From assembly GCA_035236585.1 (NCBI GenBank), contig CP141126.1:70781414-70845413 (forward strand): a stretch of DNA of 64,000 bases, written 5' to 3'. The DNA is from Warburgia ugandensis (Eukaryota > Streptophyta > Magnoliopsida > Canellales > Canellaceae). Position 1 is the stretch's first letter. Every line of letters starts with the position of its first letter. Positions 21,644 through 64,000 of this stretch are shown piece after piece. The position numbers and the translations under genes are program-made. Under the pieces are notes generated by a model. That model saw nothing but the letters and a program-made list of their open reading frames with translations, was not told the DNA's origin and did no database searches.

Positions 21644-21649
21644 GCCAAT

Positions 21650-22333: not shown

Positions 22334-22405
22334 GTAAATGCTACCATCTTCCCCTTTAGTAAATCCTCGTTTTCCTATGAAAGCTTGTATGTCCAGGTCT
22401 CCTCT

Positions 22406-22985
22406 CTATACTTGCTTAACCTTTTCATTAACAGCCGACTTTATTGTTAGACCTGCCATAACGATCTTGTGCTTACTTATGTCCGGTTTCCATGTTATTA
22501 CTTCTTGTAATAGCTTCCATCTCTTAGTCAATAAACTTGCACACATCCCGTGGGTTTTTCTACTTAATGCATTAGCTACCACATTAGCTTTTCCAGGGTG
22601 ATAATGAATGGAGAAGTCATAGTGTTTTAAGTATTCCATCCATCTTCTTTGTCGCATGTTTAAATCTTGTTGGGAAAAGATATATTTAAGACTCTTATGA
22701 TCTGTAAAAACTTCAAACTTTTCCCCATATAAATAATATCTCCAGATTCGCAAAGCAAAGACTATGGCCACTAACTCCAATTCATGGGTCGGGTAATTGA
22801 CTTCATGCTTCTTGAGTTGCCGAGAAGCATAAGCAATTACCTTCCCATGTTGCATAAGTACGCAACCTAGTCCTTGTTGTGAGGAATCGCTGTATATCTC
22901 AAATCCACCACTTCCTGAAGGTAAGGTAAGGACAGGTACTATAGTTAACATTCTCTTTAGTTCCTGGAAGCTTTCCTCACATTTA
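22406..22985 (-). pseudogene. RNase H domain (inner element)
   Basis: The 181-codon stretch 22951-22406 carries [12 protein letters not shown] (first Asp), HELELVAIV (Glu), [11 protein letters not shown] (third acidic residue) and [15 protein letters not shown], where the position of the last catalytic Asp is Asn (codon 22571-22573). RNase H removes the RNA strand during cDNA synthesis. A one-base shift near 22985 separates it from the RT end, and a stop falls between it and integrase. Apart from the Asn, the domain is well preserved, again fitting a fairly recent insertion. Confidence 0.87.
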
Positions 22986-38027: not shown

Positions 38028-39152
38028 GTTGCAATAATTTGTGTGGTGTTCATACTTTAGGTTATTTTCCTCTAGTCTATGTTTAGGGTGCATTACATTA
38101 GGGGTTTGCATAATTTATTGTTGCTATTTTCCTTATATTGATCATATTTCTTTAATTTTTGTGTGAGGGAAATTGGAAAAGGAACAGCTATGATCTTGTG
38201 GGCCACTGCTTCATCATCTTAGATTAGGTTTTATTATTTTCCTAGATTAGGATTGAGTGAAAATTGTAGTGAGGCCCAATGTAAATTGCAATTTCATTAT
38301 TATTTAATTTTAAATCATCATCGAACCCCTCACTGTTAGTATCTCTCACTCAATTTTAATTTTTAGGATAATTTGCATTTGGATGTTAGTATAATTAATA
38401 TAGATTAGGAACATTCATTAATAATTATTGCATCTTTACTTAGGATTGTTGCATTAGAGCACCTATCTAATCTTGGTTAGATAGCATGTAAGTTGCATTA
38501 GTTTGTTTTTGTATTGCATTGCATATTTATAGCTTTATGGTGGAATGAAATTAATGTTAGTAAGGGCCCCACAAGAACCTTACAAGATAAGGACTGGATT
38601 TCAACACCAGCTCCTTGGCTCACCTAGGAATCAATCAATATCCTTGTATGTCACGATCCCACCCCTTGAATTTAAATTTAAAATCAAGTCAAAAGAGACT
38701 TGAGGGTATCGAGCTCATAGGATCCTTTTAGAAGGACGCAATCTATTGTCATTCTAATGGCTTATAAGCATTGTGGTTATAGTGGGTGTCTTAATCCAAG
38801 TGATTTTCCCATGCATTATGCTGATGTTAGTTGAGGTCTAAATGCCTCCTAACACGAGGATTGTAATAACCACTTTAGAGTAGAACCTAACTGGTAAGCA
38901 ATAGTCCAATCTAGATGAAAGGAGGAGCTTTCCAGATTTAGGTCTAAGAAGTTACCACCTATGTACGAAGCAAAGATAATTAAAACACTGCTCAATTAGT
39001 GCATACAAGGATTTGATTAACATTTAGATTAAGCATTTAGTGAAGGAAAATTTCTACAAGAGCATCAATCTTAGAACCTAGAGCTAACACCTTTTAACCC
39101 AGAGATTCAATCCAAACTAAGACAAGGGGAAAGTAACAAATTTCTTATCCAA
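38028..39152 (+). other. Leader between primer site and gag
   Basis: 1.1 kb without a coding frame. It contains a block at 38952-39020 (ACCACCTATGTAC onward) whose reverse complement lies next to the partial primer sites at 46123-46191 and about 54143-54212. Confidence 0.7.
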
Positions 39153-42790: not shown

Positions 42791-43140
42791 GCACCATTTG
42801 AGATAAGGTGTGATTGCATCGAATTATGCCATTGGAGCTATTTTGGGGTAGTGCATCGATAAAATTTCCCATGTAATATGTTATACTAGTAAAATACTAA
42901 ATGATGTTATTTGGCCATAGAGAAAGAGTTGGATGTAGTGTCTATTCTAGATAAGTTTAGATCCTACTTGTTAGCGTCTAAAGTTATAGTGTACTCGGAT
43001 CATGTGGATTTAAAGTACCTCCTTTCTAAAAAGGATGCAAAACCTAGGTTGATCCATTGGATACCACTGCTACAGGAGTTTGACTTAGAAATTCTGGACA
43101 GAAAGGTTCCAAAAATGTTGTAGTTGACCTCTTGTCCAGA
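42791..43140 (+). pseudogene. RNase H domain of the Athila element
   Basis: A CDxIxYAIGAI-like segment near 42813-42850 (first catalytic Asp, codon-shifted) is followed by the 70-codon stretch 42911-43123 with [18 protein letters not shown] and [15 protein letters not shown], which carry the Glu and the next Asp. The matching region near the window end, on the minus strand, is similar. A shift near 42900 separates the two halves. Confidence 0.75.
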
Positions 43141-43259
43141 CTAGTGGTGGAGAAAACTAGCGATCACATGATTATAACTAAATCCTTCCCGGATGAATAG
43201 CTATTGCATATTTGCCAGTGGCCCTAGTACAATGATATTGTTAATTATCTATTACAAGA

Positions 43260-44514
43260 CAAATGCCTAATCAATGGACTAAACAAGATAAAAAGAGATT
43301 TTTGACCAAGGTTAGATATTTTACTTGGGTCGACCAATACTTATTCAATTACTGTCCCGGTCAGGTGACTAGGAGATGTGTACGAGATCGTGAACACAAT
43401 CAAATCATCTCCTTCTGCTATGATCATGCATGTGGGGCCATTTTAGCTTGAAAAAGACAATTGCAAAAATTTTGCAGTCTAGTTTTTATTGGCCTACCAT
43501 ATTTAAGGATGTACATGCTTACTTCACAACATGTGCGAGGTGTCAAAGATTAGGTAGTATAGGAAGGAGACATATGATTCCCCTAAACTCAATCCTTACT
43601 ATAGAGCCATTTGGTGTATGGGGCATAAATTTCATGGGACCCTTTCCTAATTCTTTTGAAAATCCTTGCATTTTAGTGGGAGGGCACTACATGTCTAAGT
43701 GGGTGCAGGTTATACCTTGTAAAACCAATGACCACAAAGTTGTAGTAAAATTCTTAAAAGAAAATATTTTTGTAAGGTTTGGTACTCCAAGAACCATAAT
43801 AAGTGATGGGGGAAAACATTTTTGTAATAAAGTATTTGAGAATTTAATGAAAAAGTATAGTGTCACCAATAGAATTGCTACTGCATACCACCCTCAGACT
43901 AGTGACCAAGTAGAGGTATCTAGTAGGGAGATAAAGAAGATACTAGAGAAGACAGACAATCCAGGAAGGAAAGACCAATCTATGAGACTTAATGACACTT
44001 TATGGGCTAATCTTACAGAATATTAAACCCCTATAGGAATGTTACCTTACCACCTGGTCTATGGAAAGGCCTTCCACTTACAAGTAGAGTTAGTGAACAA
44101 AGCATATTGGGCTATCAAAACCTCAATTTTGACTTTGATTATAGTAGGACCCACCAGAAACTCTAACTGAATGAGTTGGAATAATTGAGGAAAGATTCAT
44201 ATGACTCTGCATGATTATATAAAGACCAAATGAAGGTTGCACATGATCACCAAATCTTAAGAAAATCCTTCACACCTGAATAAAAGGTGTTATTATATAA
44301 CTCTAGATTACATCTCTTCCTAGTAAAACTCAGATCTAGATGGACCAGACCTTATATAGTACACACAATCTATCCTCATGAGACCATCAAGATTGAGAAG
44401 GACAGAGAAATCCAAAAAGTCAGTGGTCAAAGGTTAAAACCTTTCCTAGAGATGCCTAATCCTGAGATTGATGAGAAACTATTAGAGGCACCTCAATATC
44501 ATGTGCCGCCTTAG
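43260..44514 (+). pseudogene. Integrase of the Athila element
   Basis: The 62-codon stretch 43263-43451 holds the His part of the zinc site. A one-base loss near 43437 moves the frame to the 198-codon stretch 43430-44026. Residues C35 and C38 (CARC) complete the zinc site; GINFMGPFP has Asn67 (43628-43630) where the first catalytic Asp belongs; ISDGG gives Asp126 (43805-43807); QVEVSS gives Glu162 (43913-43915), exactly 35 residues apart. The C-terminal part continues in another frame at 44287-44514 (LLYNSRLHLF, then RSRWTRPY). No chromodomain, as expected for Athila. The substitution and shifts imply an inactive enzyme. Confidence 0.88.
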
Positions 44515-44567
44515 ATTAGTACTCTAGGAACCCTTGCATATTACCATCATTGCAAATTACCAACAAC

Positions 44568-44691
44568 AAGGAAGTGGCAGCACCCAAAGAGTCCACTAAA
44601 CAACATAAAAGAAGAAGAAGTAAAAGTGGGCTATAGGAAGCGGGTGTCACCTTCCAATGGAGGAGACGTCTTTTCCTAAGTTGAGAAGAGT
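44568..44691 (-). repeat. Inverted LTR segment
   Basis: About 124 bp whose reverse complement matches the LTR around 36464-36590. It contains AGGAGACGTCTTTTCCTAAG at 44661-44680, which reads on the minus strand in the plus-oriented LTRs. At 44692 the sequence switches to direct orientation (TGTATGCTTC) at the exact LTR position that follows this segment. Confidence 0.8.
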
Positions 44692-46043
44692 GTATGCTTC
44701 ATTCTCAAGTGTTCAACCTAGGATTCTTCGAGTTTGGTTTCATCTTTGAAGGTTGGTTAGTTTACTTATTCTCTTTGATGGAATTTACTTCTTTTCATGT
44801 GAGTTTACCTTGTTCTCCTTTATCTTTCCTTACTTTTAAACTATGATGATAGCCAACGGAAATCATCTTGAATCTAGTTTTGTTCTTTACCTTTCATTGC
44901 ATCTTTGTTCCCTTTCAGCCCTCTTGATTTTCCAACTTTGGTTTCTTAAGTTCCATCAATTGTTGCCTTAGTTTTCCATAGGATTTCCCTTGATTTCAAG
45001 CATGCCAGTTTATGAGTGATTGTTGAAACAATTGAAGAAGAAATTGACTTGTAATTAAGGAGTGATTAAGATTAAGTGAACATCATTGTAATCACATTTA
45101 AATTCCAGATTTGGATTACATGTATGGAGTATTATGTTAATGAACTTTTGATTTGATTGAATGAAAATAGTTGGAGTTTTCATAAGTAGTTCATTATCTT
45201 TGTTATTGAATGTTTGAATGCATTCGAAGTGACTAATTCCATGTTCTATTCATTGAATGTTTCAATTACCTTGCTGCTAGAATTTCTTTGCATGAATTAT
45301 TTATGTTAATTTCCAACACCATATAATCATGTTCAGTTGATTTTTCAAGAGCCCAACTAGACTATTAAATTGCTTAGTTAATATTAGAAATAGAATGTAT
45401 GCTTTGGATTCCAAAGTAGTTGATTAAATCCACGCCTATCCAATGAATGATGCATACCATTCCATGGTTACATGTAGGTTATTTGGGTAGTTTTCCTTTC
45501 ATTGTTGTTAGTCATTGATTTTGTTTATTTCTTTTGTTTAGTTGTAGTTAGATTTCATTAGTTTGCATCTTAGTTAGTTTGGAAAGGAATTAATTTTGTC
45601 ACACTTGTTAAAATAGGTGATTTGGATGCCTAGTTTTTTTAATTTGTATGATTAGGAAAGTAATTTGTTAAAGCCTAGTTTCCTTAAATTATTTGTTATT
45701 TTCATGTTTAAGAAAGTTGATCAATTGCATTTTAGAAAAGTTTCACTTTAGGAAAGTCATAAATTAGATGTTTTTAATTTATGAAAGTTTTAATTTTAAA
45801 AAGTGTATGTTTTAGGAAAGTTTTCCATTTAGCATTTTTCTTGTTTTTGCATAGTTTCCAATTTCATGTTTTAATTTCCATTCTTAGTTTGGGTAAAAAA
45901 TCATTTGAATTTTGGCTAGGTTAGATAGTTTAAAGTAAGGACACTAGCATCGCATTAGTTCAACTCCTCATGGGATTGACCTGATTAGCATACTATACTG
46001 CAAATAATTCGTGCGCTTGAAAGCTTTATTTGAAACAACAACA
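44692..46043 (+). repeat. Athila-type LTR, 5'-truncated, first of a tandem set of three
   Basis: Covers about the last 1.35 kb of the LTR, from the TGTATGCTTC block to ACAACAACA at 46043. Unlike a normal 3' LTR it is followed by a partial primer site (TGGTGCCATTGC, 46050-46061) and internal sequence, so it acts as the left LTR of the derivative at 46044-47450. Confidence 0.8.
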
Positions 46044-47450
46044 AATTTTTGGTGCCATTGCATAAACTATTCTACACTAAATTCCCTAAACTAAATTATG
46101 ACTCTAACTCTACGTGATGCACAATCAAATCCTAGTAAGTACTAAACGAGTAGTATTTTGAGTATCTTTACTTAGTACATAGGTGGTAGATGCATATAGG
46201 GATTTTGAATTTTCTTGAGCTTTTCAAAAAAAAAAAATTAATTTTGGAAGAGTTACCTTACTATGATGAGAACTGAATGCTTAGAATTTAGTAATTGTAC
46301 TTTTTCACCTCTTAATGGGAGTGTATATGATAAATTTTTCATTTGTGTTGAAGTATTTTATGAAAGAAAACTCTCGAAAACTATTTACACATAACACATA
46401 GTCAAGACTAATAGAGAGGTATGACTTAGAAACCCTGAGGAAAATTAGTGGAGACCTATAACCCAGTGCGTATAAAGACTATATTCCTACAGAGAGTTAT
46501 AAGTAATTCCAGAATTTCTTCAGCATACACAACTTAGTGTGATCCTGTTATCCTTGTTTGGTTAACTATTAAGAATAAATAAGAGTAATAGCTTTGTTTC
46601 TAGAAAATTTATTGAATTTGATAGGCTTTAAGAAACCTAGGAAATGATATAAGCCATCCTTGTTAAACCCAGATACATAAATCTTACCACTAGTTAGCCC
46701 TTTGAGCCTACTATTAAGTGTTTCTTTCTTAAGCTCACTCACCTTAACCCAAAAAAAACCAATAAAACAAATACCCATTATCCATTTTCAAAATGAGTAG
46801 AGTTATAGAAAAGTTCAAAAGAGGACAAAAAGACAAACAAGTGAGAAACTTAGCAATCTTTGTTCCAAAGAAGCCAAAGGAAAAAGAAAAAGTGAAAATA
46901 AAAGTATCAAAAAACAAAAAGAAAATTGAGAGACAATAATATAAAGGAAATTCACTTCAAACTAAAATGTGTCCTAACAAATATTCAGTGAAGACCTCTA
47001 GTCAATTTTGACCCTTTAAAATCCTTATACCCTTCTTTCCGTAGCCCTACCCTAGCCTATGTTTGGTCCTAATTGAAGACTTGTTGATCTTAGGTGGAAT
47101 ATAGTCTTAAAGAAGAGACAAAAAGAAGGAATTAAGGTAAACTATCCCTACTATTCTTGGTAATGACATTCACTCTTAAGGATCACTTTCCTTTGTGTCT
47201 TTAGGACTTCAAAATTTATGTGAACCATTAGCTTTGTTGAATCGATCACATAATGAGAGAAATATATTTAAATGCTTGTCTAAGAGCTTCACTTTTGAGA
47301 GTATACTTGTAAGAATTTGAGGTCAAGACACTTTGTATTTATGCTAAATGCAATCGTGAGTACCTACAAAAGTGACATTTGGTATTTCTTTTTGTAAAAT
47401 AATTTTTTTCATGTTTTCATCCAGACTAGAAAAATACTCGTTGGGGTGTT
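46044..47450 (+). mobile_element. gag/pol-less Athila derivative, internal region copy 1
   Basis: From left: partial primer site, a segment of about 140 bp containing the leader block in inverted orientation (46123-46191), then the non-coding 3' internal region ending in a polypurine tract (TTGGGGTG, 47441-47448) before the next LTR. It has no gag, protease, RT or integrase. Compared with copy 2 it lacks about 280 bp near 47330. The Lys-rich frame near 46790 is not conserved in frame between copies and is not a gene. The minus-strand 69-codon ORF at 46569-46778 has no domain. Confidence 0.72.
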
Positions 47451-50171
47451 TCATAAGTGATTAATTTTTCATAAAAACCCCCCAATTAGTTACCCATGTG
47501 ATAGAATTTATAGGGGTTAATTAGGATTTTTAGACCAAAATTTGCAACACATGTTTTTTTGACCTAATGAGGAAAAATTTGTTATTTTGTTTGTCCAAAA
47601 GCTAATCTAAGATAAGTATGTCATTAATCATATTTTTTTAAGATTTAATTAGAAATTTTTACTTTTTGTAGGAAGCAAGATGGTGATTCAACAATTGACA
47701 TCGATAAAGATGAACATTGAAGATCAAGATCAAAACATAGAGTCCAAGCCTTAAAATCATCACTTCAGCATAAACCAAAGGCCAAAATCATTTTCTAGAC
47801 TAGTAATGGACATGATTAAAGGAGCTAAAGATGCCAACGTGTTCCCATGAAATAAGCCATGCATTACCACCAGCTTTTCATGGAAGTCACTTAAGTCACC
47901 TTAGCCAAAGAAGCCATGAAAGAAGGTGGGTAGCTAAGAAATTCAAGCCAAACCATACAAGCCACTCAAGATAAGGGATGGAGCCATGAAGCAAATCCAA
48001 GAAACTTCCTAAGCCAGCTATGAAGCTTAGCCAATGGAGCTTTCAAAGCTAGCCATCTTAGCATCAATCTAAGCTAAATGGATGGCTAAGATTGGAGGAG
48101 ATTCAAGAGAGTTATGCATGAGATATTTTGAAGATAATTAAGAAAAAATCTATTAGAATAAGATGGGATGTGGACCATTGGGATAAGATCATTCAATTTT
48201 TATGTTTATCTCACTTTTCCCCACTTTTTCCTTAATTTCCACCACACCCTTAAAATGCACTAAGAATTTCCAAACTCTATCTCATTCCACCTCTTAGGAA
48301 ACTTCCCAACCAAGCAAATCTCTCCACCTAACACCCTCCACCTCTTTCTCAACCAATCCCCACAACTTTCTTATTTCCTAAAGGTTTCAACAACTTTGGA
48401 AGGGGCGAGATGCCCCTTCCTAAAAAGGTGGCATCTCCCACGTACTCCCCTCCTTAATGCAGCCACCTCCTTCTAAACTTTCCTATTTGATGTCTACCCT
48501 TCTCCCTAGCCATTCAATTTAACATACTTTGATCCACACCATAGCTTAGTATTAAGCTACCCTAGGAAAAATAGGAGAAGATTTATAAAAACCAGACCAA
48601 ACATAAGAAAACACACACTCTTCTAAACTTAGGAAGTAACTTCTCCTCCATTGGAAGGAGACAACCACTTCCTACAGCCCACTTATTCTTTTCTTTTTTA
48701 TTGTTTTGTGGAGGATTCAGGTGCTATCACTTCCTTTCAAGGTGTATGCTTCTTGCTCAATTTCTCAATCTAGCATTTTTGGAGTTTTTATTCATCTTTG
48801 AAGGTTGGCTAGTTTCCTTATTTTGTTTGCTGGAATTTACTTCTTTTCATATTAGTTTTCCTTGTTGCCCTTTATCTTTCACTACTTTTAAATTAAGATT
48901 CAAGGCTGGTTTTCCCTTGGTGTGACACCCAAGGGAAGTTATCTTGAATCTAATTTTCCCTTCTCCTTCCATAGCCTTTTGAATATCTTTTAGCTCTCTC
49001 TTTATTTCTAGCTTTGTTTGCTTAAGTTCCATTGGTTAGTGCCTTAGTTTTCCAGAGGATTTTCCTTTAATTTCGAGCAGACTTGTTCATGAGTGATTGT
49101 TTGAACAATTAAAGAAAAGATTTTCTTGTAATTAAGGAGTGATTAAGATTATGTGAACATCATTGTAATAGCATTTAAATTTAAGATTTGGATTGCACAT
49201 ATGGAGTATTATGTTGATGAACTTTTGATTTGATTCAATGAAGATAGTTGGAATTTTCAATTCATGTTTGTGTCCATCAGTAAATTATCTTTGTTATTGA
49301 ATGTTGATTGCATTAGAAGGGATTAGTTCCATGCTTTGAATGTTCTATTTATTGAATGTTTCTATTACCTTACTATTGAAATTTCTTTGCATGAATGGTT
49401 TATGTTAATTTCCAGCATCATACAATCATGTTCACTTGATTTTTTAAGAGCCCAACTAGATTGTTAAATAGCTTAGTTAATGTTAGAAATAGATTTCATT
49501 CTTAGGTTTCCAAAGTTGTTGATTAAATCCACTCCTACACAAGGAATCATGCATACCATTCCGTGGTTACATGTATGTTATTTGGGTAGTTTTCTTTTAG
49601 TGTGGTTAGTGATTTCTTTCATTTAATTCTCTTATTTAGTTGTGGTCAGATTCCATTAGTTTGCATCTTGGTTAGTTTGGAAACGAATTAATTTTGTCAC
49701 ACTTGTTAAAATAGTTGATTTGGTTGCTTATTTTTCTTAGTTTTGCATGATTAGGAAAGTAGTTTGTTAAAGCATGTTTTCCTTAAATTAGTTGTTAATT
49801 GCATGCATAGGAAAGTTAGTTTAGGATAGTTGATAAATTAGATTTCAGGAAACTTTCACTTCAGGAAAGTTTTTAGTTAGGAAAGTTATATAATTAGAAG
49901 TTTTTAATTTAGGAATGTTTTAGTTTTAAAAAGTGTATGTTTTAGGAAATTTTTCCATTATCATGCTTCTTTTTTTGCTTCGTTTCCAATTTCATATTTT
50001 AATTTCCATTCTTAGTTTAGGGCCATAATCACTTGAATTTTGGGTAAGTTAGATAGTTTAAAGGAGGAACACTAGCATCATATCAATTCAACTCCTCATG
50101 GGAATGACCTTAAGAGTGTACTATATTTCAAACCATTCATGCACTTGCAAGTTTTATTTAAAACTACAATA
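47451..50171 (+). repeat. Athila-type LTR, full length, second of the tandem set
   Basis: 2721 bp, from TCATAAGTG (the terminal G has become C) to ACTACAATA. It contains the AAGCCA-type motif cluster (47860-48080), a TATA box at 48582-48591 and the shared R/U5 blocks. It is followed by a partial primer site (TTGCCGCCATTGC, 50178-50190). ORFs at 48701-49032 are incidental. Confidence 0.85.
48582..48591 (+). promoter_or_regulatory. TATA box of the Athila LTR
   Basis: TTTATAAAAA, followed 25-35 bp later by a CACACACTCTTCTAAAC block that is the likely start region. The same arrangement is at 56797. The copy at 36441 reads TTGTAAAAA. Confidence 0.6.
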
Positions 50172-50208: not shown

Positions 50209-50823
50209 TGTAACAACCCTAAAATTTTACTATTGCATGATTGAAGTATAAGCTTCTAGGAGAATAAATTTTTATGGAATTAGAATCAGGAACTAAAATA
50301 TAAATAAATAGATTCTACTAAAAAAATGGAATCCAAGGACCCAAAGAACACTGAAAACAGAGTCCGGATGAAGAAGTTATGTGACTCAAAAGTTAGGGCT
50401 ATTTTGGTGATTAAAAGTAAAAAAAAACTAAGAATATGAAATTGAAATTACTAAATCTGGATTCTACTCGAGGATACAAATCCAACGGCACTAAGTTCAC
50501 TGAAATCAGAGATTGGACGAGTAAATGGTAATTTTCTTACAAAAGGGTATTTTAGTAAATTTGCTAAGTGGGCCCCACTTGCAAGAGTTGGAATGTGACA
50601 GTCTATGAAGTTGATAAACATCATTAGTATGTCTTACCTTTTCTTTGATTGATATCATGGTGTTTAGAATAGTAAAAACACCATTATGAAACTTTCAAAT
50701 AAATAAAAGAAAAGAAAATTAAAATAACAAAAAGGGGGGCTACATTTGATAACGACACCCACCACTTAGGTGAAACATAGGGAACCGACTTAGGTCTATT
50801 CCCAAAATCTGATAGAATCCTAC

Positions 50824-50929
50824 GAAGAGGAAAGAAAGAGAAGAAGAAAGAAAAGGAAGAAAAGAAGAAGGAAAGGAAGAAGAAGAGAGGGAAGAGGTGG
50901 GAAAGAAGAAAGAGGAAGGAGAGAGAGAG
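50824..50929 (+). repeat. Long polypurine tract in the solo LTR
   Basis: 74 uninterrupted purines (50824-50897), one T, then 31 more (50899-50929). This is the longest purine run in the window, at the same relative place in the LTR as 4565-4642 and 28216-28262. Confidence 0.9.
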
Positions 50930-53691
50930 CTTGCTAGGGAAACCAGTCATGCCGGTGAGCACGAGAAAATGCATCTCGGTAGGGTTTTCATGTCACTGAG
51001 AAAAATGGAGCTCGCCGGCGAAGATGAAAGCTCAGATTCCAAATCCGAAACCCCCACCTTGTTCGCCTCAAGGTCTACGGCAAAAAAGCCCTTTGTTTCC
51101 ATTTTGATCAGATGAAGATTTCATGGTGTTTTTTGGCTGGCTAGGGTTGCGGGTCATCACAGGAGATGACAACATATCGGATCAATGATTCAAGCTAGTC
51201 ATCTTCTACGATTGGCCTAGAAGAACCAAAACCCCATGGTTTTGGATGGATCTGGGATGATCTAGGCCATCGATTGATGGGGACTCTACTGTGTGACTAG
51301 ATCAAGGAGAGTTCACCTAAAATCAATGTCAATCCAGCTCATCCAAGGGTGGAAGATAGTACAAAAACACGCTCTGAAGATAAAATTCGTGACGCCCATC
51401 TTTTGATTTCGTGTAATTTGTTAGATCTTTGAATTTCTATCCTAGATCTAAATTTAAGGATGATCCAACCATCCATTTCTTAATCTAAATTTATGGATAG
51501 GTAGATAGACAGTTGAAAAATCCTAAAATCAACTCAGATTGCCGATCTAGACTATAAGACTGATCAGATAATCTCAACCGTCTGATCAGGTACTATTCAT
51601 ATAGTAAAAATTTGATGTCTGATCGTTGATCAGACATCATGGATGAATTAAACAACCCTAAAATTACTATAATATAGGAGGAATTGATGAATTTATATGT
51701 AAATTGACTACAAACTGACGGACAATCTCAGCTGTCCGATCGGGTATTGTTCACACAGTAATTTTGTAGTATCTAATCGATGATCAAACACCACAGATGA
51801 ATCCTATGACCCTAAATTAGCTAGGATGTGACTAGAATGTTGTAATTTGGATGAAAACCTAGCAAGAAACCTCAACCGTCCGATCTGTCACTATTCAAAC
51901 AGTGACTTATTGACATCAAATCAACGATTAGATCTAGTAGATGAGTTCTAATCATCAATCCAAAGCTGAAAATGGTCTATTCGACCAATGTACACGCTTA
52001 AATTAGTTAAATCTGACCATGTAATCTAATGAAAAATACAATTTAGATGTCCACACAAATGAACCATAGATCTCAACCCTAAACTAAGGACAGACATCCA
52101 CAGAAGCCCTGGTCAACAACTCACATGAGTCTTGATCGTCCATGTAAAGATCCGATAATGAGGATCTAGGCCTTGGATTACATCGGATTCTTAAGATTAT
52201 GATCATAATTAAATCTAAATGTCTCTATGTATGTGAATGTATTAAGAAAATAGTTTTTATGTATTGAATAGATTGAAGCAAGCGTGGTCGATCATGGAGA
52301 AGAGGGTGATTAAAGCTAGTGGAATTAAAGAACGTGTCACACTAGGTAGGTGGAAATTTAAGACAGCATGTCGAAATAATAAGCTACATGATCTTATTTC
52401 TAATTATGGATGTTATGAAACTAAAATGGTATGATTGATATTCTACATGCTTTAAATTGAAATGATGAAAATAATGTTAATTAAAAGAATTGCATGTTAT
52501 AATTGATGCTTATGACCTGCACATCATGTATGTGAATTCTAAAATTTTGTTTATGGTACATGGGTACCAAGTTAGTATTTGTGGTGTATGAGTCTAGGTT
52601 TATAGGATACATCCTTGGTGGATTATCACCAAATAAGTGAGGATGTTATTCTTGTTATGAAATATATGAATAGGCAAATTGCTTGCTATTATAATTATTT
52701 TACATTCGAGTATGGAGGATTGAGTGTTTTGTTTTAGATAGGTGTAGGCCTGGGGATGCTATGCTAAGAGAGTTATGAGGCTTTGGCCACCCACTCTCCA
52801 AAATTTATAATGTTATGGATACTAAGCATTATGTGGTGCTAAAAGTCGAGTGGGGCAATTATGGAAAGGCCGCCACTGTGACAACCATTGTCATCCCATA
52901 CGGACATGGATATTGTGATTTCTATTGAGGATGGTATAGGTGGATTATTGAGCAGTTATCCAGGTGCACTATACAAATTCTGACCGCATGCATAGTAATC
53001 CTTATATTTAATGCATTACGGTGCTTATATGATGGCATTATGAGATGCTTTATATGATATGGCATGATGATATGCCTTATATTTTTTTCCCTGTGGTAAT
53101 TGGAGGATTGTGGACCCATATAGTGAGGGGCATGAGGATTTTACTGATATATCAGCAGAGGCTAGATGATTATGAACCCCACATGATGAGGGGTATGATT
53201 TTGAAACTCAGTATAGTTTGGGAATGTAGATTAGGAGACTTATTGATTATATTCATAATTTTGTATGTCTTTTAACAATTTCCATATATGTGTGCTTATG
53301 TAATATATATATGATTGAGGGCGTAGTTTCATATGGGTATATGAATGGGTAGAACTATTATGCAGAGAATGGTTCAAGGAATTGGATTAGTTTATTTATA
53401 TAACAAATAAAAATTAAAGATGTTTGATAAATTAATGGATTATTATAATTACGAAACATGTAGATATAGATAATTATGAAACATGTTAATAATTGATTCA
53501 TCAATGGATTGTTAATGATTATGAAACATGTAGATAATTTGGTTTATAAATGGATTATTGAAATGTGAAACATACAGTAAATCCCATTCAATAAAATTGT
53601 TATGAAAATGAATATTCTAATTACTATGGAATATTTAATGTATTTTGAGATTTATCGTGCTTTTTAAACTCCCCTACCAAGCGTAGCTTGC

Positions 53692-53728
53692 TGAGATATT
53701 GTAAATGCTTTATGTTTACAATATCTCA
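53692..53728 (+). other. LTR stem-loop, perfect 14-bp stem
   Basis: TGAGATATTGTAAA at 53692-53705 and TTTACAATATCTCA at 53715-53728, with a 9-nt loop, 385 bp from the LTR end. It is preceded by AAGCGTAGCTTGC, itself a small inverted repeat. Confidence 0.85.
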
Positions 53729-53941
53729 AATACAGATAGACAGAAGAAGATGTACACAAGAGGAGGAATTGAGCAACCATACTTCTATGCTCAACTTTAC
53801 ATTTTATTAAAGCTTTTGTATTGTGTTGTTAGTCATTTGAATTGTGATATTTGACATTTAATATAATGTTATAAGTGTTGTCCAAGTGAACCACTGGATG
53901 GGTCCTGTTTTAAAAAATGAATTTTTATCCTCTAAAAAACT

Positions 53942-53965
53942 ATATATATATATATATATATATGT
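53942..53965. repeat. (TA)n microsatellite
   Basis: About 12 TA units near the end of the solo LTR. Confidence 0.9.
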
Positions 53966-54113
53966 ATAGTGTAAGCATGAAAGTGACATCTGGGTTATTG
54001 GAAAAATGAATTTCAAAGAAAATCTTCTGCTATTTTTGTATTTTAAAATTTAGAGGTGTGCCATATTTTGAAATAAATGCAAAAACAATTCATGAAAAAC
54101 CTGGGATGTCACA

Positions 54114-55707
54114 CTAAATGCCCTATTCTAAATGATGATGCGCAATCAAATCCCAGTGAGCACTAATCGAGTAGTGTTTTGATTATCTTTGCCTAGTACA
54201 TAAGTGGTAGAAGCATATAGGGATTTTGAATTTTCTTGAGTTTTAAAAAAAAAAAATTTGGTTTTAGACTAGTTCCCTTACTATGTTGAGAACTAGATGC
54301 TTAGTGTTTAGTAATTCTAATGGTTTCACCTCTTAATGAGAGGGTATATGACTAGTTTTTTATATTATTCATGTGTTGAAGCTTTTTATGAAAGTTAATT
54401 ATCAAAAACCATTTACGCACATAGTCAAGACTAATAGAGAGGTATGACTTAGAGATCCTGTGGAAAATCAATGGAGACCTATAACCAAGTGAGTTTAGAG
54501 ACTATCTTCTTTTAGGGAGTTATAAGTAATTCCACAGTTTCTTTAGTGTACATAACTTAATGTGATCATGTTATCTATGTTTGGTTAACTATCAAGAATA
54601 AATAGGAGTAATAGTTTTCTTTCTAGAAAATTTATTAGATCTGAAAGGCTTTAGAAAACCTAAGAAATGATATAGGCCATCCTTGTTCAACCAAGAGACA
54701 TAAAACTCACCCACCTTAACCAAGAAAAACTAGTAAAACAAATAACCATTTTGAAAATGAGTAGAGTTAGTAGAAAAGTTCAAAAGAGGACAAAAAGTCA
54801 AAGAAGTGAGAAAATTAGCAATCTTTCTTCCAAAGAAGCCAAAGGAAAAAGAAAAAGTGAGAAGAAACATATCAGAAAAAGAAGAGAAAAGGTGAAAGAG
54901 GAGAATACAAAAGAAATTCACTTCAATAAAACCAAAAAAGTGTTTTAACAGATATTCATTGAAGACCTATAGTCAATTTTGACCCTTTGAAATCCTTGTA
55001 CCCTTCTTTTCAGAACCCTACCCAAGCCTATGTTTCATCCTAATTAATGACCTGTTGATATTAGGTGGAATATAGTCTTAAAGAGGAGATAAAAATAAGG
55101 AATTAAGATGAACTACTCCTACTATTCTTGGTGATCACATCTACTCTGAAGGGTCACTTTCCTTTGTCTCTTTAGCACTTCAAGATTTATGTGAATCATT
55201 AGCTTTGTTGAATCCAATCACATAATGAGATAAATATGTTTAAACCCTTTTCTGAGAGCATTATTTCTAAGAGTATACCTATAAGGATTTGAGGTTAAGA
55301 CATATTTCCAATGAAATTTAAGCATATCCAGTTAGAAGTCATGACCTAAATGACCGCACACACATGCATTCTAAGAAATAACTAGAATGAAATGTCTTTA
55401 CTATGTATATGATTTGTAAACTAGTCAATCTTCTCCATTAAGTTGTGAAAAACTAGTAAAGTGCTAAAGAATGAGGATTCACAAAGATAAAATTGAGGAC
55501 TTAACCTTAGGGAATTTTGTGGGTATACTCATGGCAAACCCTCACGAGGCCTAACTCATCCACTAGGGATAAACAAGGGATTTAAGGGTACGTTGCATGT
55601 GCTAAATGCAATCGTGAGTAACTATGAAAGTGACACTTTGTATCTGTTTTCATAAAATGGATTTTTGCATATTTTTCTCAAAACTAAAAGAATGCTAGTT
55701 GGGGGAG
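54114..55707 (+). mobile_element. gag/pol-less Athila derivative, internal copy 2, main part
   Basis: Continues from 50208. It has the inverted leader block (about 54143-54212), the non-coding 3' region and a polypurine tract (TTGGGGGAG, 55699-55707) next to the LTR at 55708. The segment around 55530-55620 is the reverse complement of 33440-33520 and 60770-60850. No coding domains. The 63- to 65-codon frames near 54730-54948 arise from an A/G-rich stretch and differ in frame from copy 1. Confidence 0.75.
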
Positions 55708-58307
55708 TGATAAGTGTTTAATTTTACATAAAAATAACCCAATTAGTTACCCATGTGTTACAACTTATAGGTGTAAATTAGGGTTTTTAGACCAAAGTTT
55801 GTAACACATGACTTTTTGAACTAATGAGGAATCATATTCTTTTTAAGATTTAATTAGAATTTTTCACTTTTTGTAGGAAACAAGATGGTGATCCGACAAC
55901 CGAGATCGATCAAGATGAACATTTAAGATTAAGATCAAAAGATAGAGTCAAAGCCTCAAAATCATCATGTCAACATAAACCAAAGTCCAAAATCATCATG
56001 TGTACCAGCAATGGATGTGATTAAAGGAGCTAATGATGGCCAAAATGGGTCCATGCAGTAAGCCATGCATTCTCACCACCTTTGCACAGAAGCCACTTAA
56101 GTCACCTTAGCCATATAAGCCATGAAAGGTGGCAAGCTAAGGAATTCAAGCTAAACCTTACAAGCCATCAAGCTAAGGGATGGAGCCATGAAGCCAAGCC
56201 AAGGAAGCTTCCTAAGTCAACCATGAAGTTTAGCTAATGTACGCTTCAAAGTTAGCCATCTTAGCCATCAAGCAAAATAAAATGGAAGGCTAGGATTGGA
56301 GGAGATTCAAGAGAGTTATCCATGAGATTTTTAGAAGATAATTAAGGATAAACATATTAGAATAAGATGGTGGCATGTGGACTGATGGGATAAGAGCATT
56401 CAATTTTTAGTGTTTTTCTCACTTTTTCCCACTTTTTCCTTAATTTCCACCTCACCCTTAAGATGCATTACAAATTTCCAAAACTCTACCCCATTCCATC
56501 TCTTATGAAACTTCTCAAACAACCAAATCTCACCACCTAGCACCCTCTACCACTTTCCCAACCAATCAACACCCATTTTCCTATTTTCTAAAGTTTCAAT
56601 CACTTCAAAAGGGCGCAGATGCCCCTTACTAAAATGGCTGCATTTCCCACCTACTCCCCTCCTTAATGCAGCCACCTCCCTCCACATTTTCCTATTTGAT
56701 GTCTATCCTTCTCCCCCATCCTAACCATTCAATTTGACATACTTTGATCCACACCATAGCTTATTATTAGGGTACCCTAGGAAAAATAGGAGAAGATTTA
56801 TAAAAACCAGCCCAAACATAAGCAAACACACACTCTTCTAAACTTAGGAAATGATGTCTCCACCATTGGAAGGAGATGCCCATTTCCTACAGCCCACTTT
56901 TTCTTCTTTCATTTGTTGTCTTGTGGAATCTTAGGGTGCTGCCACTTCCTTCCAAGGTGTATGCTTCTTCCTCAAGTGCTCAACCTAGCATTTTTGAAGT
57001 TTTGATTCATCTTTGAAGGTTGGTTAGTTTCTTTATTCTATTTTTTGGAATTTACTTCCTTTCATGTTAGTTTTCCTTGTTTCCCTTTATCTTTCATTGC
57101 TTTTAAATTAAGATTCAAGGTTGGTTTTTCCTTGGTGTGACATCCAAGGGAAGTCATCTTGAATCTAATTTTCCCTTCTCCTTCCATGGCCTTTTGAATA
57201 TCTTTTAGTTGTCTCTTTATTTCTTGGTTTGTTTGCTTAAGTTCCATTGGTTAGTGCCTTAGATTTGTTCATGAGTGATTGTTCGAACAATTAAAGAAAA
57301 TATTTTATTGTAATTAAGGAGTGATTAAGATTATGTGAACATCATTGTAATAGTATTTAAATTTAAGATTTGGATTACATGTATGGAGTATTATGTTGAT
57401 GAACTTTTGATTTGATTCAATGAAGATAGATGGAATTTTCAATTCATGCTTGTGTCCATAGTAAGTTATCTTTGTTATTGAATATTTGATTACATTAGAA
57501 GTGATTAATTCCTTGTTTTATATGTTCTATTCATTGAATGTTTCAATTACATTACTATTGGAATTTCTTTACATGAATGGTTTATGTAATTTCCAGCACC
57601 ATTCAATCATGTTCACTTGATCTTTCAAGAGCCCAACTAGATTGTTAGATAGCTTAGTTAATGTTAGAAATAGATTGCATGCTTAGGTTTCCAAAGTAAT
57701 TGATTAAATCCACTCTTATTCAATGAATCATGCACACCATTCCATGGTTACATGTGTGATGATTTGGGAGTTTTTTTTTTCATTGTTTGTTAGTGGTAAT
57801 CTTTCCTTATTTCTCTTGTTTAGTTGTAGTTAAATTCCATTATTTTTCATTTTCTTTAATTTGGAAAGTAATTAATTTTGTGAGACTTATTGTGATTTTA
57901 TTGCTTACTTTTCTTAGTTTTGAGGATTGGAAAGGTAGTTTGTTGAAGCATGTTTACCTTAAATCAGTTGTTAATTTCATGTTTAGGAAAGTTGCGAAAT
58001 TGCATTTTAGGAAAGGCTTTTTTATTAGGAAAGTCATAAAATTATAATTTTTTTATTTAGGAAATTTTTAATTTTAGGAAAGTTTTCAATTTAACATGTT
58101 TTTTTTTTTTTTTTTTAGTTTCCAATTTCATGTGTTAATTTCCAATCTTAGTTTAAGTCAAAAATCACTTGCATTTGGCTAGGTTAGATATTTTAAAATA
58201 GGGACCACTAGCATCACATTAGTTCAACTCCTTGTGGGATCGACCTCACTAGCATACTATATTGCAAATGATTCATGGGCTTGCAAGTTTTGTCTAAAAC
58301 AACGACA
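55708..58307 (+). repeat. Athila-type LTR, full length, third of the tandem set
   Basis: 2600 bp from TGATAAGTGTTTAATTTT to AACAACGACA. It has a TATA box at 56797 and the AAGCCA-type motif cluster (56090-56280). After it comes TTTTGGAATCATAGC, only loosely like the primer site, then a minus-strand copy of the same LTR from 58339. The 86-codon ORF at 57787 is incidental. Confidence 0.87.
56797..56806 (+). promoter_or_regulatory. TATA box of the Athila LTR
   Basis: TTTATAAAAA in the same context as at 48582. A transcript starting about 30 bp downstream and reading past 58307 would enter the inverted LTR copy. Confidence 0.6.
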
Positions 58308-58338
58308 AGCTTTTGGAATCATAGCAGTATACCATGCT

Positions 58339-60664
58339 AGTGAAACTTTCCTAAAATGCAATTTATCAACTTTCTTAAACTAACTTTCCTTAACATGAAA
58401 TTAACAACAAATTTAAGGAAAACACACTTTAACAAACTACTTTCCTAATCATGCAAACTAAGATAACTAAGCAAGCAAATCAACTTTTTTAACAAGTGTG
58501 AAAAAATTAATTACTTTCCAAACTAAATAAGATGTAAACTAATAGAATTCAACTACAACTAAATAGGAAAAATAAACAAATAATTACCACTAACAAAAAA
58601 AGAAAGGAAAAACAACCCTATCATCATGCATTTAACCATGGAATGATATGCATGGTTCATTGGATAGGAGTGGATATAATCAACTAGTTTGGAAACCTAA
58701 ACATGTAATCTATTTCTAAAATTAACTATGCTATCTAACAATCTAGTTGGGCTCTTGAAAAATCAAGTGACCATGATTGTATGGTGCTAGAAATTAACAT
58801 AATTCATACAAAGCAATTCCAGCAGTATGGTAATTGAAACTTTCAATGAATAGAACATGTAATACATGGAATTAATCACTTCTAATGCAATCAAACATTC
58901 AATAAAAAATATGATTGGCTTCTAGACACAAACATGAATTGAAAACTACAACTATCTTCATTGAATCAAATCAAAAGTTCATCAACATAATACTCCATAC
59001 ATGTAATCCAAATATGAAATTTAAATGCTATTACAATGATGTTCACTTATTCTTAATCACTCCTTAATTACAAGCCAATTTATTCTTCCATTGTTCCAAC
59101 AATCACTCATGAACTAACATTCTTGAAATCAAGGAAAATCCTATGGAAAACTAAGGCAACAACCATTGGAACACAAGCAACCAAAGCTGGAAAATTAAGA
59201 GGGTTGAAAGAGAACAAAGATACAATGAAATGTAAAGAGCAAAACTAGATTCATGAGAACTTCCCTTAGCTATCAATCCAAGGAAAAACCAGACTTGAAT
59301 CATAATTTAAATTCCAGGAAAGATAAAGGAAAACAAGGCAAATTAACATGAAAAGAAGTAGATTCCAGCAAAGAGAATAAGGAAACTAACCAACCTTCAA
59401 AGATGAATCAAAATTCCAAAAATCCTAGCTTGAACACTTGAGGAAGAAGCATACACCTTGGAAGGAAGTGGCTGCACCCAAAGACTCAACAAACCAACAA
59501 ACAAAAGAAGTAAAAGTGAGTTGTAGGAAGCGGGCATCTCCTTCCAATGGAGGAGACGTCTTTTCCTAAGGTACCCTAATATTAAGTTGTGGTGTGGATT
59601 AAAGTATGTCAAATTGAATGGCTAGGATCGAGGAAAAAGAGTAGACATCAAATAGGAAAGGGTGGAAGGACGTGGTTGCATTATGGAGAGGAGTAGGTGG
59701 GAGACGCCGCCATTTTAAGAAGGTGTCTCTTCCCCCTTTCGAAGCCATTGAAACCTTTAAGCAATAGGAAAGTGGGCAGGGATTGGTTGGGAAGATGTGG
59801 AGGGTGTTAGGTGGAGAGATTGGGTTGGTTGGGAAGTTTCCTAAGAAGTGTAATGAGATAGGGTTTTGGAAATTCGTAGTACATCTTAAGAGAAGTGGAA
59901 ATTAAGGAAAAAGTGAGAAAAACGCTGAAAATTGAATGCTCTTATCCCATTGGTCCATGTGCCATCTTATTCTAATATATTTCCCTCAATTATCTTGGAA
60001 ATATCTCATGGATAACTCTCTTAAATCTCCTCCAATCCTAGCCTTCCATTTATCTTAGATGGCTCACTTTGAAGGCTTCATTGGCTAAGCTTCATGGATG
60101 GCTTAGGAAGCTTCTTGGCTTGGCTTCATGACTCCATCTCTTAGCATGAGTGGCTTGTATGGTTTGGCTTGAATTCCTTAGCTTGCCAACTTCTTATATG
60201 ACTTATATGGCTAAGGTGACTTAAGTGGCTCCTATGCAAAGGTGGTGGGAATGCATGGGTTACTTCATGGGCCCACTTTGGCCATCTTTAGCTACTTTAA
60301 TCACATCCATTATTGGTCCACAAGATGAGAATGGCCTTTGGTTTATGTGAAGTGATGATTTTGAGGCTTCATCTCCATCTTTTGATCTTGATCTTCAATT
60401 TCATTTCAATCGATCTCGACTATTGGATCACCATATTACTTCCTATAAAAAGTAATAAATTATAATTAAATCATAGAAAAACATGATTAATAACTTACTT
60501 ACCTTGGACTAGCTTCTGTACTCACAAAATAATAAAATTTTGGCTTATTAGTTCAAAAGTGCATTTGTTACGAATTTTTGTCTAAAAACCCTAATTTACC
60601 TCTATCAGTTGTAACAAATCGGTAACTAATTAAGTGGTTTTTATGCAAAATTAAACCCTTATCA
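58339..60664 (-). repeat. 3' LTR of the minus-strand Athila element, 3'-truncated
   Basis: On the minus strand it starts TGATAAGGGTTTAATTTTGC at 60664 and matches 55708 onward until GGAAAGTTTCAC at 58339, so about the last 300 bp of the LTR are gone. The segment with the TATA box and start region present at 48560-48640 and 56780-56850 is missing here (junction at about 59571), removed between two TAGGAAAAGA repeats. Confidence 0.85.
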
Positions 60665-62459
60665 CACCCCCTCCAACTAGAATTTTTCTAGTCCCAAGAA
60701 AAACATGTAAAAATTTATTTTACAAAAATAAATACAAAGTGTTGCTTTCATAGGTACTCACGTTTGCATTTAGCACATGCAACAAGCCCTTAAGCCCTTA
60801 TGTTATCCCTAGTGGATGAGTTAGGCCTCATGAGGGTTTGCAGTGAATATACCCACAAAATTCTTAAGGTTGTGTCCCCTATTTCATCTTAGAGAATCCT
60901 CATTCATTAGCACTCAACTAGTTTCTCACAGCTTAATGGAGAAGATTAACCATTTTACAAATCATACACATACTAAAGACATTTCATTCTAGTTATTTCT
61001 TAGAGTTATGTGTGCGTCTAACCATTTAAGTCATGAATTCTAATTGAATATGCTTAAATTTCATTGAAAATGTGTCTTGAACTCAAATCCTTATAGGTAT
61101 ACTCTCATAAATGAAGTTCTTCAATAAGGGTTTAAACATATTTTGCTCATTATGTGATCGAATTCAACAAAGCTAATGGTTCACATAAAATGATAAAGAG
61201 ACAAAGGAAAGCGATCCTTAAGAATGGATGTCGTTACCAAGAATAGTAGGGGTATTTTACCTTAATTCTTTCTTTTTATCTCCTCTTTAAGGCTATGTCC
61301 CACCTAAGATCAACAAGTCTTTAATTAAGATGAAATGTAGGCTTAGGTGGGGTTCTAAAAAGAAGGGTCTAAGGATTTCAATGATTTAAAATGGAGTAGA
61401 GGTCTTCAATGAATATCTCTTAAGGAATGTTTTGGCTTTGTTGGAGTGAATTTCCTTTGTGTTCCTGTCTTTCACTTTTTCTCTTATTTTTCTGATACTT
61501 CTTTCTTTTCAACTTTTTTTTTTGAAAGAAAGAATGCTAATTTTCTCACTTCTTTCACTTTTTCTCCTCTTTTGAACTTTTCTACTAACTCTACTCATTT
61601 TGAAAATGGGTAATGCTTATTTATTTTACTAATTTTTCTAGGTTATGTTAAGTGAGATTAAGAAATAAAGGCTTAATAGTAGCCTCAAAGGGCTTACTAG
61701 AGGTCTGAAATATACTGGGTAGGATTTATGTCTCTAGGCTAAACAAGAATAGCTTATATCATTTCCTAGGTTCCCTAAAGCTTATCAAATTCAATAATTT
61801 TTCTAGAAATGAAGCCATTACTCCTATTTATTCTTGGTAGTCAACTAAAACAATGATAACAGGATCACACTAAGTTATGTATGTTGAAGAAACTATGCAA
61901 TTACTTATAACTCTCTGAAAGAAGATAATCTCTAAACTCACTGGGTTATAGGTCTCCATTAATTTTCCTCCAGGTCTCTAAGTCATACCTCTCTATTAGT
62001 CTTCACTATGTGCTATGTCTAAATGATTTTTGAGAATTGAATTTTATAAAATGCTTCAACACATTAATAATATGAAAAGCAAATCATATCCCATTAAGAG
62101 GTGAAAACAGTAGAATTACTAAAATTTGAGCATCCAATTCTCACAATAGTAAGGGAACTCTCCAAAAAACCCTTCTTTTTTTTTTTGAAAGGCTCAAGAA
62201 AATTTCAAATCCCTATATGCATCTACACCCCCCCAACCGGAATGAAACATTGTCCCTAGTGCAAGAAAACATAGCATCCTATATTGAAAGATGTAGAAGA
62301 TGGAGATGTAAAAATATCTAGGTTCTCTGAGGGAGCACTAATTTTTACGACTTTAGCCAAACATAATGATGAGTAAAATGATGGTAATCTACAAGGGTTC
62401 CTAGAGTGGTAATCTAACGTGGATCATGATACTAAGGTATCTCTAATAGTATCTCATCA
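60665..62459 (-). other. Non-coding region between integrase and 3' LTR, with two polypurine-like tracts
   Basis: 1.8 kb without domains or an env-like frame. On the minus strand GGAGGGGGTG (60674-60665) adjoins the LTR, and GGTTGGGGGGG (62238-62228) lies about 1.57 kb upstream, after GACAATGTTTCATTCC. The internal regions at 46044 and 54114 match the part between them. Confidence 0.75.
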
Positions 62460-63450
62460 AACTTAGAATTAGGCATCTCTAAGAAAGGTTTTAACCTCTG
62501 ACCATTGACTTTATGGATTTCTCTGTCCTTCTCAATCTTGATGGCCCCATGAGGTTAGAAGGTGTGTACTATACATGGTCCAATCCATCTAGACTAGAGT
62601 TTTCCTGTGAAGAGATGCAATCTAGAGTTATACAGTAAGACCTTTTGTCCAGGTGTGAAGGATTTCCTTAACATTTGGTGATCATATGCAGCCGTCATTC
62701 AGTCTTTGCATAATCATCTAGAGTCATATCCGGTGTGTCTTAGTAGAATCTAAGTCAAAATTGAGCTTTTTGATAGCCCAATATACTTTATGCTCTAATT
62801 CTCCTAGTAAGTGGTAGGCCTTTCCATGGACTAGGGGATAAGGTGACATTCCTATAGGGGTTTTATAAGTCGTATGATAGCCCGTAAAGCATTTTTGAGC
62901 CTTATGGACTAATCCTTCCTTCTTGGATTGATTGTCTCCTTTAGAATCCACTTTATCTCCCTATTGGATACCTCTACTTGGCCACTGGTCTGAGGGTGGT
63001 ATGTAGTAGCTATTCTATGGTTGACACCGTCGCAGTATAGTATAGCAGCAGAATTAGCTAAAGCTAGAGTCAAACGAGCAGGTCTAGTCTCTAGCCTCCC
63101 CCAAGCTTATACCTCTACTTGGCCACTTGGAAACGTAGTCCACTCCCACTAGGATGTAAAGATTTCCAAAAAAATTAGGAAAGGGTCCAATGAATTCTAT
63201 GCCCCAAAAATCAAATGGCTCTATAATAAGGATTGAGTTTAAGGGCATCATATGCCTCCTTCCTAGACTACCTAATCTTTGACACCTCATACATGCTATG
63301 CAATAAGTATGTGCATCCTTAAATATGCTAGGCCAATAAAAACCACACAAAAAAAAATCTGCAATTGTCTTTCTAGAGCTAAAATGGCCCCCACATGCAT
63401 GATCATGACCAAAGGAGATAATTTGATTATGTTCACTATCTGGTATGCAT
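62460..63450 (-). pseudogene. Integrase of the minus-strand Athila element
   Basis: The 88-codon stretch 63350-63084 has the CMRC half of the zinc site and GIEFIGPFPN, where the first catalytic position is Glu52 (63195-63197) instead of Asp, then YVSKW. It then enters foreign sequence (63108-63027): the part of the core with the second catalytic Asp is replaced. Homology resumes at about 63022 with [17 protein letters not shown], keeping the third catalytic Glu. The C-terminal part is open at 62951-62724 (SPYPLVHGKAYHL) and continues near 62640-62500. Clearly non-functional. Confidence 0.82.
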
Positions 63451-64000
63451 CTCCTAGTAACTTAATTGAGACAGTACTTGAATAAGTGCAAGTTATCCTA
63501 AGTAAAATATTTAACCATTGGTCAAAAATCTCTTTTTATCTTATTTGGTCCAATGATTAGGCATTTGTCCTGTAACAAGATAATTAACAATATCACCATA
63601 TCAAGGCAACTAGGAAATATGCAATAACTTTTCATTTAGGAAGGATTCAATTATAACCATGTGATTGCTATTTTACGCCACCACTAGTATGGATAAGTGG
63701 TCTGCTACAACAGTTTTGAAACCTTTCTTGTCTCGAATTTCTAAGTCCAACTCCTATAGCAGTAGTATCGAACAAATCAACCTAGGTTTTGTATCTTTTT
63801 TAGAAAGGAGGTACTTTAAAGCCGGGTGATCTGAGTACACTATAACTCTAGACCCTAACAAGTAGTTGAGTTACACATCATTTAGTGTTACACATCTCCT
63901 TCTCTGTGGTGGAATAATTGAGTTACACATCATTTAGTGTTTTACTAATGTAATATATTACATGGAGAATGTTATCAATGCACTGACCCAAAATAGCTCC
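63451..64000 (-). pseudogene. RNase H to integrase linker of the minus-strand Athila element
   Basis: From the window end leftward, the minus strand reads GAILGQCIDN and ISKTLNDVQLNYSTTEKE, the RNase H region corresponding to 42830-42930. A 24-bp sequence is then repeated (63918-63941 and 63866-63889) in place of about 50 bp of coding sequence, and VYSDHP-like codons follow at about 63840. The linker to integrase (63480-63750) matches 43140-43330 in layout. Confidence 0.7.

Follow-up and report, generated by a model that had tools for sequence, protein, structure and literature searches.

Two old Athila-like long terminal repeats of different descent, probably joined tail to tail by later rearrangement in Warburgia ugandensis, with a predicted long hairpin fold

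We analysed a 64,000-nucleotide stretch of Warburgia ugandensis DNA (contig CP141126.1, positions 70,781,414 to 70,845,413; hereafter the window), in which two Athila-like long terminal repeats (LTRs) of retrotransposons face each other. An earlier note on this DNA had placed a full plus-strand LTR at 55708-58307 and, after a 31-bp spacer, a minus-strand LTR at 58339-60664, and had read them as the arms of a 2.3-kb inverted repeat. Comparison of the window with itself (best 80 self-match lines) confirmed the inverted repeat, with the two LTRs on opposite strands and their U5 ends facing. Alignment with the other LTR copies in the window upheld the plus LTR as described; for the minus LTR, the strand and the U3-side end at 60664 held, and the U5-side start moved to 58317. 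The extent of 2.3 kb was too short, since homology continues through 3' internal DNA to 54207 and 62226. The arms thus span 54207-58274 and 58316-62226, each about 4 kb long and made of one LTR plus about 1.5 kb of 3' internal DNA. The features of the locus are as follows.

50209..54113 (3.9 kb), plus strand: likely solo LTR of another family inside the plus unit, flanked by TTAAA / CTAAA
54207..55707, plus strand: outer plus arm, the 3' internal region and polypurine tract (PPT)-like end of the plus element (BLAST against the reversed minus side, 80-82%)
Within 54207..55707, directly before the plus LTR, plus strand: PPT-like run GTTGGGGGAG (from the sequence)
55708..58307, plus strand: plus LTR (U3-R-U5), the inner plus arm, aligned with the other LTRs of the window
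56797..56804, plus strand: TATA-like box TTTATAAA of the plus LTR, a putative promoter
58016..58245, plus strand: U5 stretch of the plus LTR lacking a minus-LTR partner, a bulge in the predicted hairpin (alignment and fold)
58275..58315, no strand: predicted hairpin loop of about 41 nt (inner pairs of the minimum free energy (MFE) fold)
58308..58316, plus strand: AGCTTTTGG, probably what is left, after the plus LTR, of the beginning of a primer binding site (PBS) (comparison with the 47-kb copy)
58317..60664, minus strand: minus LTR, with about 230 bp of U5 lost internally and the terminal 3' stretch of about 33 bp absent
59561..59570, minus strand: scar of a 57-bp deletion in the TATA region of the minus LTR (BLAST break at 56785/56843 versus 59561/59570, and sequence)
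60665..62226, minus strand: outer minus arm, the 3' internal region of the minus element (BLAST)
62227..64000, minus strand: continuation of the minus element into integrase-coding DNA, outside the inverted repeat (reverse match to 42834-44551)

The window LTRs of this long-LTR family lie at 35578-38003 (plus), 44686-46050 (plus, a piece), 47440-50171 (plus), 55708-58307 (plus) and 58317-60664 (minus), and the first three are called here the 35-, 44- and 47-kb copies. Between the two arms, BLAST returned three pieces, 54703-56785 / 61659-59561 (80.3% identity), 56843-58015 / 59570-58346 (80.7%) and 54207-54713 / 62226-61716 (82.0%). Global alignment of the LTR arms (55708-58015 / 58339-60664) gave 1885 matches, 300 mismatches and 264 gap columns, which corresponds to 86.3% identity at ungapped positions and 77.0% over all columns; by both measures the arms lie above the 75 percent that had been proposed as the lower limit for pairing.

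By ungapped identity, the arms were no closer to each other than other members of the family. In R/U5, ungapped identity ranged from 85.5 to 90.0% across all 10 pairs of the five LTRs, with the two arms at 86.7%; similarly, U3 identity was 85.4-87.4% across the 6 pairs of the four U3-bearing LTRs, with the two arms at 86.2%. An LTR tree, built after dropping columns filled in under half of the rows (2717/3068 kept), with one long-branched outgroup row and with the 44-kb fragment flagged for odd base make-up and low filling, paired the plus LTR with the 47-kb LTR (100/98) and left the remaining branching unresolved. Constraining the arms as a clade cost 40.1 log units (p-AU 0.00108). Because sister arms were rejected and the ungapped identities were not raised, these alignments and the tree show that the arms are two separate, old copies of different descent and not a duplication.

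An inverted duplication of the Mu killer type, in which both arms come from one element, was rejected on the same p-AU of 0.00108. Selection for pairing between the arms was also considered. Selection for pairing of the plus-strand RNA would be expected to leave an excess of G-U-compatible differences, and no such wobble bias was found, either among the R/U5 differences (27 G-U-compatible versus 40 incompatible transitions, p 0.14) or over the whole arms (131 versus 149, p 0.31). Selection for arm pairing was rejected accordingly.

The junction between the LTRs is for the most part better described as minus-LTR sequence than as a spacer. Of the 31 bp at 58308-58338, most appear to belong to the minus LTR: the U5 end of the plus LTR itself (about 58246-58274) aligns with 58317-58345 in reverse orientation. 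A 41-base junction query scored 31 against the plus LTR tail (equalled by 0/1000 shuffles), 23 against the same LTR position of the 44-kb copy (5/1000), 22 against a different LTR place in the 35-kb copy (5/1000) and 18 against the 47-kb copy (103/1000). The MFE fold, made without the junction alignment, likewise pairs 58246-58274 with 58343-58316. The junction therefore appears to be U5-tail sequence of the minus LTR, which follows an internal U5 loss of about 230 bp, and this LTR ends about 33 bp short of the full LTR end (58274 versus 58307 equivalents). At the scar (about 58341-58345), TCACT borders the lost stretch on its near side in the 44-kb copy and on its far side in the plus LTR, a placement such as illegitimate recombination may leave. 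AGCTTTTGG, which follows the plus LTR, has 1 mismatch to the bases that come after the LTR in the 47-kb copy. Instead of the expected loop of about 320 bp, the fold predicts one of about 41 nt (58275-58315), and the remainder is mainly the U5 bulge at 58016-58245.

Another origin considered for this arrangement was that the plus element had inserted into the minus LTR, in which case the missing U5 piece would lie upstream in reverse. The 58016-58245 stretch has plus-strand matches in the 35-, 44- and 47-kb copies. Among the first 30 lines of a search with it (E<=1), the single long copy in reverse was 30983-30791 (73.7%). This copy lies next to a related 31-kb LTR, and its identity falls below that of the copies within the family (76.3-80.5%), so that such an insertion is not supported.

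We then folded the RNA 56830-59900, which the earlier note had expected to pair with its own inverted copy. The MFE was -1467.2 kcal/mol, with 1046/1224 pairs linking the two LTRs, compared with -684.7 +/- 16.7 kcal/mol for 20 dinucleotide shuffles (z ~ -47). Three other slices of the window folded at -761.7 to -811.6 kcal/mol, and the opposite strand of 56830-59900 at -1466.9 kcal/mol. When the minus part was turned round, the energy rose to -678.9 kcal/mol; since this control loses the stability, the hairpin follows from the orientation of the two copies. The longest uninterrupted stem was 62 bp, starting at 57368 with 59013, and among the 21-nt windows of the plus arm 122/1426 were fully paired and 559/1426 had <=2 unpaired bases. 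No Rfam match reached gathering score in 54000-62700 (0 matches). These results predict with confidence a capacity for a long hairpin, the arms being able, in the model, to pair over hundreds of bases within one transcript. The expected fold thus stands as a prediction. A selected or specialised hairpin source is disfavoured by the separate descent of the arms, their unraised ungapped identity and the lack of wobble bias.

The 47-kb LTR shares the TATA-like box TTTATAAA, the 35-kb LTR carries an altered form of it, and the minus LTR has lost it through a 57-bp deletion equivalent to 56786-56842, between two TAGGAAA repeats; the presence of the box at 56797 and its loss on the minus side agree with what had been noted before. 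The observed/expected CpG ratio was 0.12 in the plus LTR and 0.19 in the minus LTR, compared with 0.27 in the window. Decay of 5-methylcytosine depletes CpG after long methylation, and the low CpG of both LTRs is as expected of such a history.

Next, we assessed which copies 21-mers from the arms could match, using the five LTR copies and one relative, all in the window. Allowing <=2 mismatches, 33% of the plus-arm 21-mers matched the 35-kb LTR, 21% the 44-kb piece, 45% the 47-kb LTR, 28% the minus LTR and 2% the 31-kb relative. For the minus arm the values were 49% (35-kb), 37% (44-kb), 33% (47-kb), 33% (plus LTR) and 2% (31-kb relative). Four control stretches of the window gave 0 matches to plus-arm 21-mers. 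Silencing against the whole Athila family, as proposed at first, was therefore overstated, with 21-45% of plus-arm 21-mers matching a given copy and 2% the 31-kb relative; from these matches, the predicted hairpin might act on close copies but is unlikely to reach the whole family. The methylation regained with an Athila5 hairpin in Arabidopsis was confined to ATHILA5 and did not extend to other ATHILA elements (PMC11410651).

Regarding family identity, integrase zinc-binding and core domains, the pair used here to recognise Ty3/gypsy elements, were both found at 43430-44026 on the plus strand (Integrase_H2C2 2e-09, rve 6.4e-09), and RNase H precedes integrase at 42905-44026. The order RNase H before integrase is typical of gypsy elements, and these integrase domains are general among them. 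The minus element carries Integrase_H2C2 at 63087-63461 (minus strand, E 2.2e-10), and no integrase core domain was found in the pieces of it that were scanned. For the Athila lineage, the mark that we take to be diagnostic is a tRNA-Asp PBS next to the LTR (a 13-base motif). This motif follows the 44- and 47-kb LTRs with 3 mismatches each; the 35-kb LTR has a related, more altered form beyond 3 mismatches, and the plus LTR is followed by just 9 bases of PBS-like sequence. The integrase had 3562 relatives with E<=1e-10, and the name Athila was absent among the 120 of them listed. Pfam scans of 18 open reading frame (ORF) pieces from the window, of which 12 belong to copies of this family, found no Athila-specific family, and an env-like ORF was not otherwise sought. 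The label Athila-like is accordingly applied on the form of the LTR and PBS, the latter judged by this motif, together with the gypsy-type integrase and RNase H pieces.

On the plus side, the 47-kb LTR is preceded by 3' internal DNA with a PPT-like run and followed by PBS-like sequence, and thus has internal DNA on both sides, as in a tandem; the leader after it matches that of the 44-kb unit. The likely solo LTR at 50209-54113 starts TGTAACAACCC and ends TCACA, and its flanks, when rejoined, align to the unit at 46 kb. With this solo LTR left out, the LTR end, leader and 3' internal start of the two units are alike at 223/261 ungapped positions, so that the span 44.7-58.3 kb is probably a tandem with three LTRs, formed by a shortened Athila-like element. 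All three LTRs (44.7, 47.4 and 55.7 kb) would then come from one array with shared shortened internal DNA. The leader in both tandem units includes an inverted copy of 38953-39042. Tandems with shared LTRs are described as frequent in plants (PMC11899658).

Several further observations were made in the neighbourhood. Sequences partly related to the likely solo LTR lie at 11-14 kb, 18 kb and 24-27 kb. The 44-kb LTR piece (44568-46082) opens with an inverted stretch of ~128 bp from the beginning of R, which corresponds to 56824-56951, beside the predicted transcription start; after this stretch the piece runs in direct orientation through U5 into the PBS start. The in-place inversion at the RNA 5' end is reminiscent of an aberrant reverse-transcription product. 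At 30791-33548, a minus-strand LTR of a related family (~74-75% alike) faces away from the 35-kb plus LTR, and the two form a second, weaker inverted pair in the window. Separate ORF pieces at 21026-22951 (minus strand) are gypsy chromovirus-like remnants (RNase H, integrase zinc binding, SH3-like, chromodomain).

The explanation that we favour, with good confidence, is that the tail-to-tail pair consists of two old Athila-like copies of different descent, likely joined by later rearrangement, whose RNA is predicted to fold if it is transcribed. The plus LTR would be the last LTR of the tandem array. A break just after the PBS start of the array may have become fused to the minus LTR at a point ~33 bp before that LTR would end, after which each arm would have decayed separately. 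At present the locus most likely lies in silent heterochromatin, shares the methylation of its neighbours and gives rise to hairpin RNA, if at all, sporadically and as a by-product. Should transcripts that start at the plus TATA or outside read through, the paired stretches would presumably be processed by DCL2/3/4 into small interfering RNAs (siRNAs), which would act mainly on this locus and its closest relatives. The locus is thus probably inert, and possibly a member of the class of endogenous inverted-repeat siRNA loci, for which it is a candidate; that it actively produces siRNAs seems to us a slim chance.

Some results weigh against this explanation. Between the two arms, the longest exact run is 62 bases, the longest among the 10 R/U5 pairs (30-51 in the others), and their all-column U3 identity of 82.3% ranks second among six pairs; from these two values, a short conversion tract between the arms is possible. 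The 31-base filler alone matched moderately the plus LTR (12/2000 shuffles) and the 44-kb copy (19/2000), and was unsupported by the 35-kb (876/2000) and 47-kb copies (1004/2000). The feature after the plus LTR is probably a PBS remnant and comprises 9 bases, and 63/63,991 plus-strand 9-mers in the window match the three family variants of the post-LTR 9-mer with at most 1 mismatch. Plant poly(A) signals are loosely defined; no AATAAA occurs on the plus strand in 56830-58316, which, with the plus TATA intact, leaves read-through possible. The first plus-strand AATAAA, at 58571, falls within the minus arm, where it could truncate the hairpin. An assembly artefact, in which two unrelated contig ends were joined in a repeat-rich region, would also undo the explanation. 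We regard it as very improbable, given 0 Ns in the window and a junction inside recognisable LTR ends; moreover, the arms are 14% apart, which argues against a fold-back artefact, for which near-identical arms are expected.

Other biological origins and roles were weighed against the same results. Both arms would descend from one copy if a single element had been duplicated in inverted orientation or had folded back, or if one cDNA had undergone autointegration; such an origin is in keeping with the tail-to-tail geometry, the small central loop and the long exact run. The rejection of sister arms, the grouping of the plus LTR with the 47-kb LTR, and the internal regions, shortened and rearranged in the plus unit and continuing into integrase in the minus element, leave it hardly any probability. 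A working natural hairpin locus, in which transcripts from the plus LTR or upstream cross the junction, fold and are diced into siRNAs silencing relatives, accords with the very stable predicted fold (z ~ -47), the 62-bp stem and the 122/1426 fully paired windows. Published work lends it precedent: read-through over promoterless inverted repeats starts silencing in tobacco BY-2 cells (PMC6196474), endogenous inverted repeats in Arabidopsis give siRNAs without RDR (PMC4687873), and transgene-expressed Athila hairpins yield 21- and 24-nt RNAs (PMC11410651). Against it stand the lack of any sign of selection on pairing, the different descent of the arms, the strong CpG loss in both LTRs, and the 14% divergence of the arms compared with the perfect 2.4-kb hairpin reported for Muk (PMC2563033). 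In the Arabidopsis transgene study (PMC11410651), moreover, ATHILA2 hairpins did not give the rescue given by ATHILA5 hairpins, so cross-copy action may be narrow. On balance we judge a working locus unlikely. A natural 'Athila killer', in which fusion of a tandem array with an inverted copy lets Pol II read-through produce a hairpin whose dicing silences the related subfamily in trans, would need no inverted duplication of one element and is, as a whole, slightly more doubtful still.

The favoured explanation, two separate copies joined later, makes the pair an instructive fossil, in which strong predicted folding is not in itself a sign that the hairpin is selected or works. Simple tests are offered by arm ancestry and wobble bias, and both were negative for this pair. 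If such a locus were active, nested retrotransposon debris could yield silencing hairpins by chance orientation alone, and a common genome feature would be a possible source of transposon immunity. In the literature searched, we found no description of two adjacent, independently inserted plant LTR retrotransposons making an siRNA hairpin, which is not proof of absence.

Among known systems, one close in outline is Mu killer (Muk) of maize, likewise a transposon-derived inverted repeat whose transcript is a long hairpin against its own family. Muk is a duplicated, inverted part of one MuDR and forms a perfect 2.4-kb hairpin with siRNAs (PMC2563033), whereas the Warburgia pair consists of two separate LTR retrotransposon copies, 14% apart and known from sequence alone. 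The Arabidopsis loci IR71 and IR2039 share the genome-encoded long stem-loop, but their precursors have been detected, as have siRNAs for IR71 (PMC4687873); the evidence here is of sequence only. Similarly, the maize pollen hairpin siRNA loci, including Tpd1, have long hairpin precursors, one of 4,480 bp, but are defined by expressed, strand-biased 22-nt RNAs, with a 73-nt stretch near-completely complementary (PMC11390486). The plus side reads LTR-internal-LTR-internal-LTR, as in tandem LTR retrotransposon arrays (PMC11899658), except that the array here ends at a junction with an inverted copy. Finally, in Arabidopsis ddm1 rdr mutants, RNA from ATHILA hairpin transgenes was processed into 21- and 24-nt RNAs and non-CG methylation was restored (PMC11410651); those hairpins are artificial constructs, unlike the natural locus described here.

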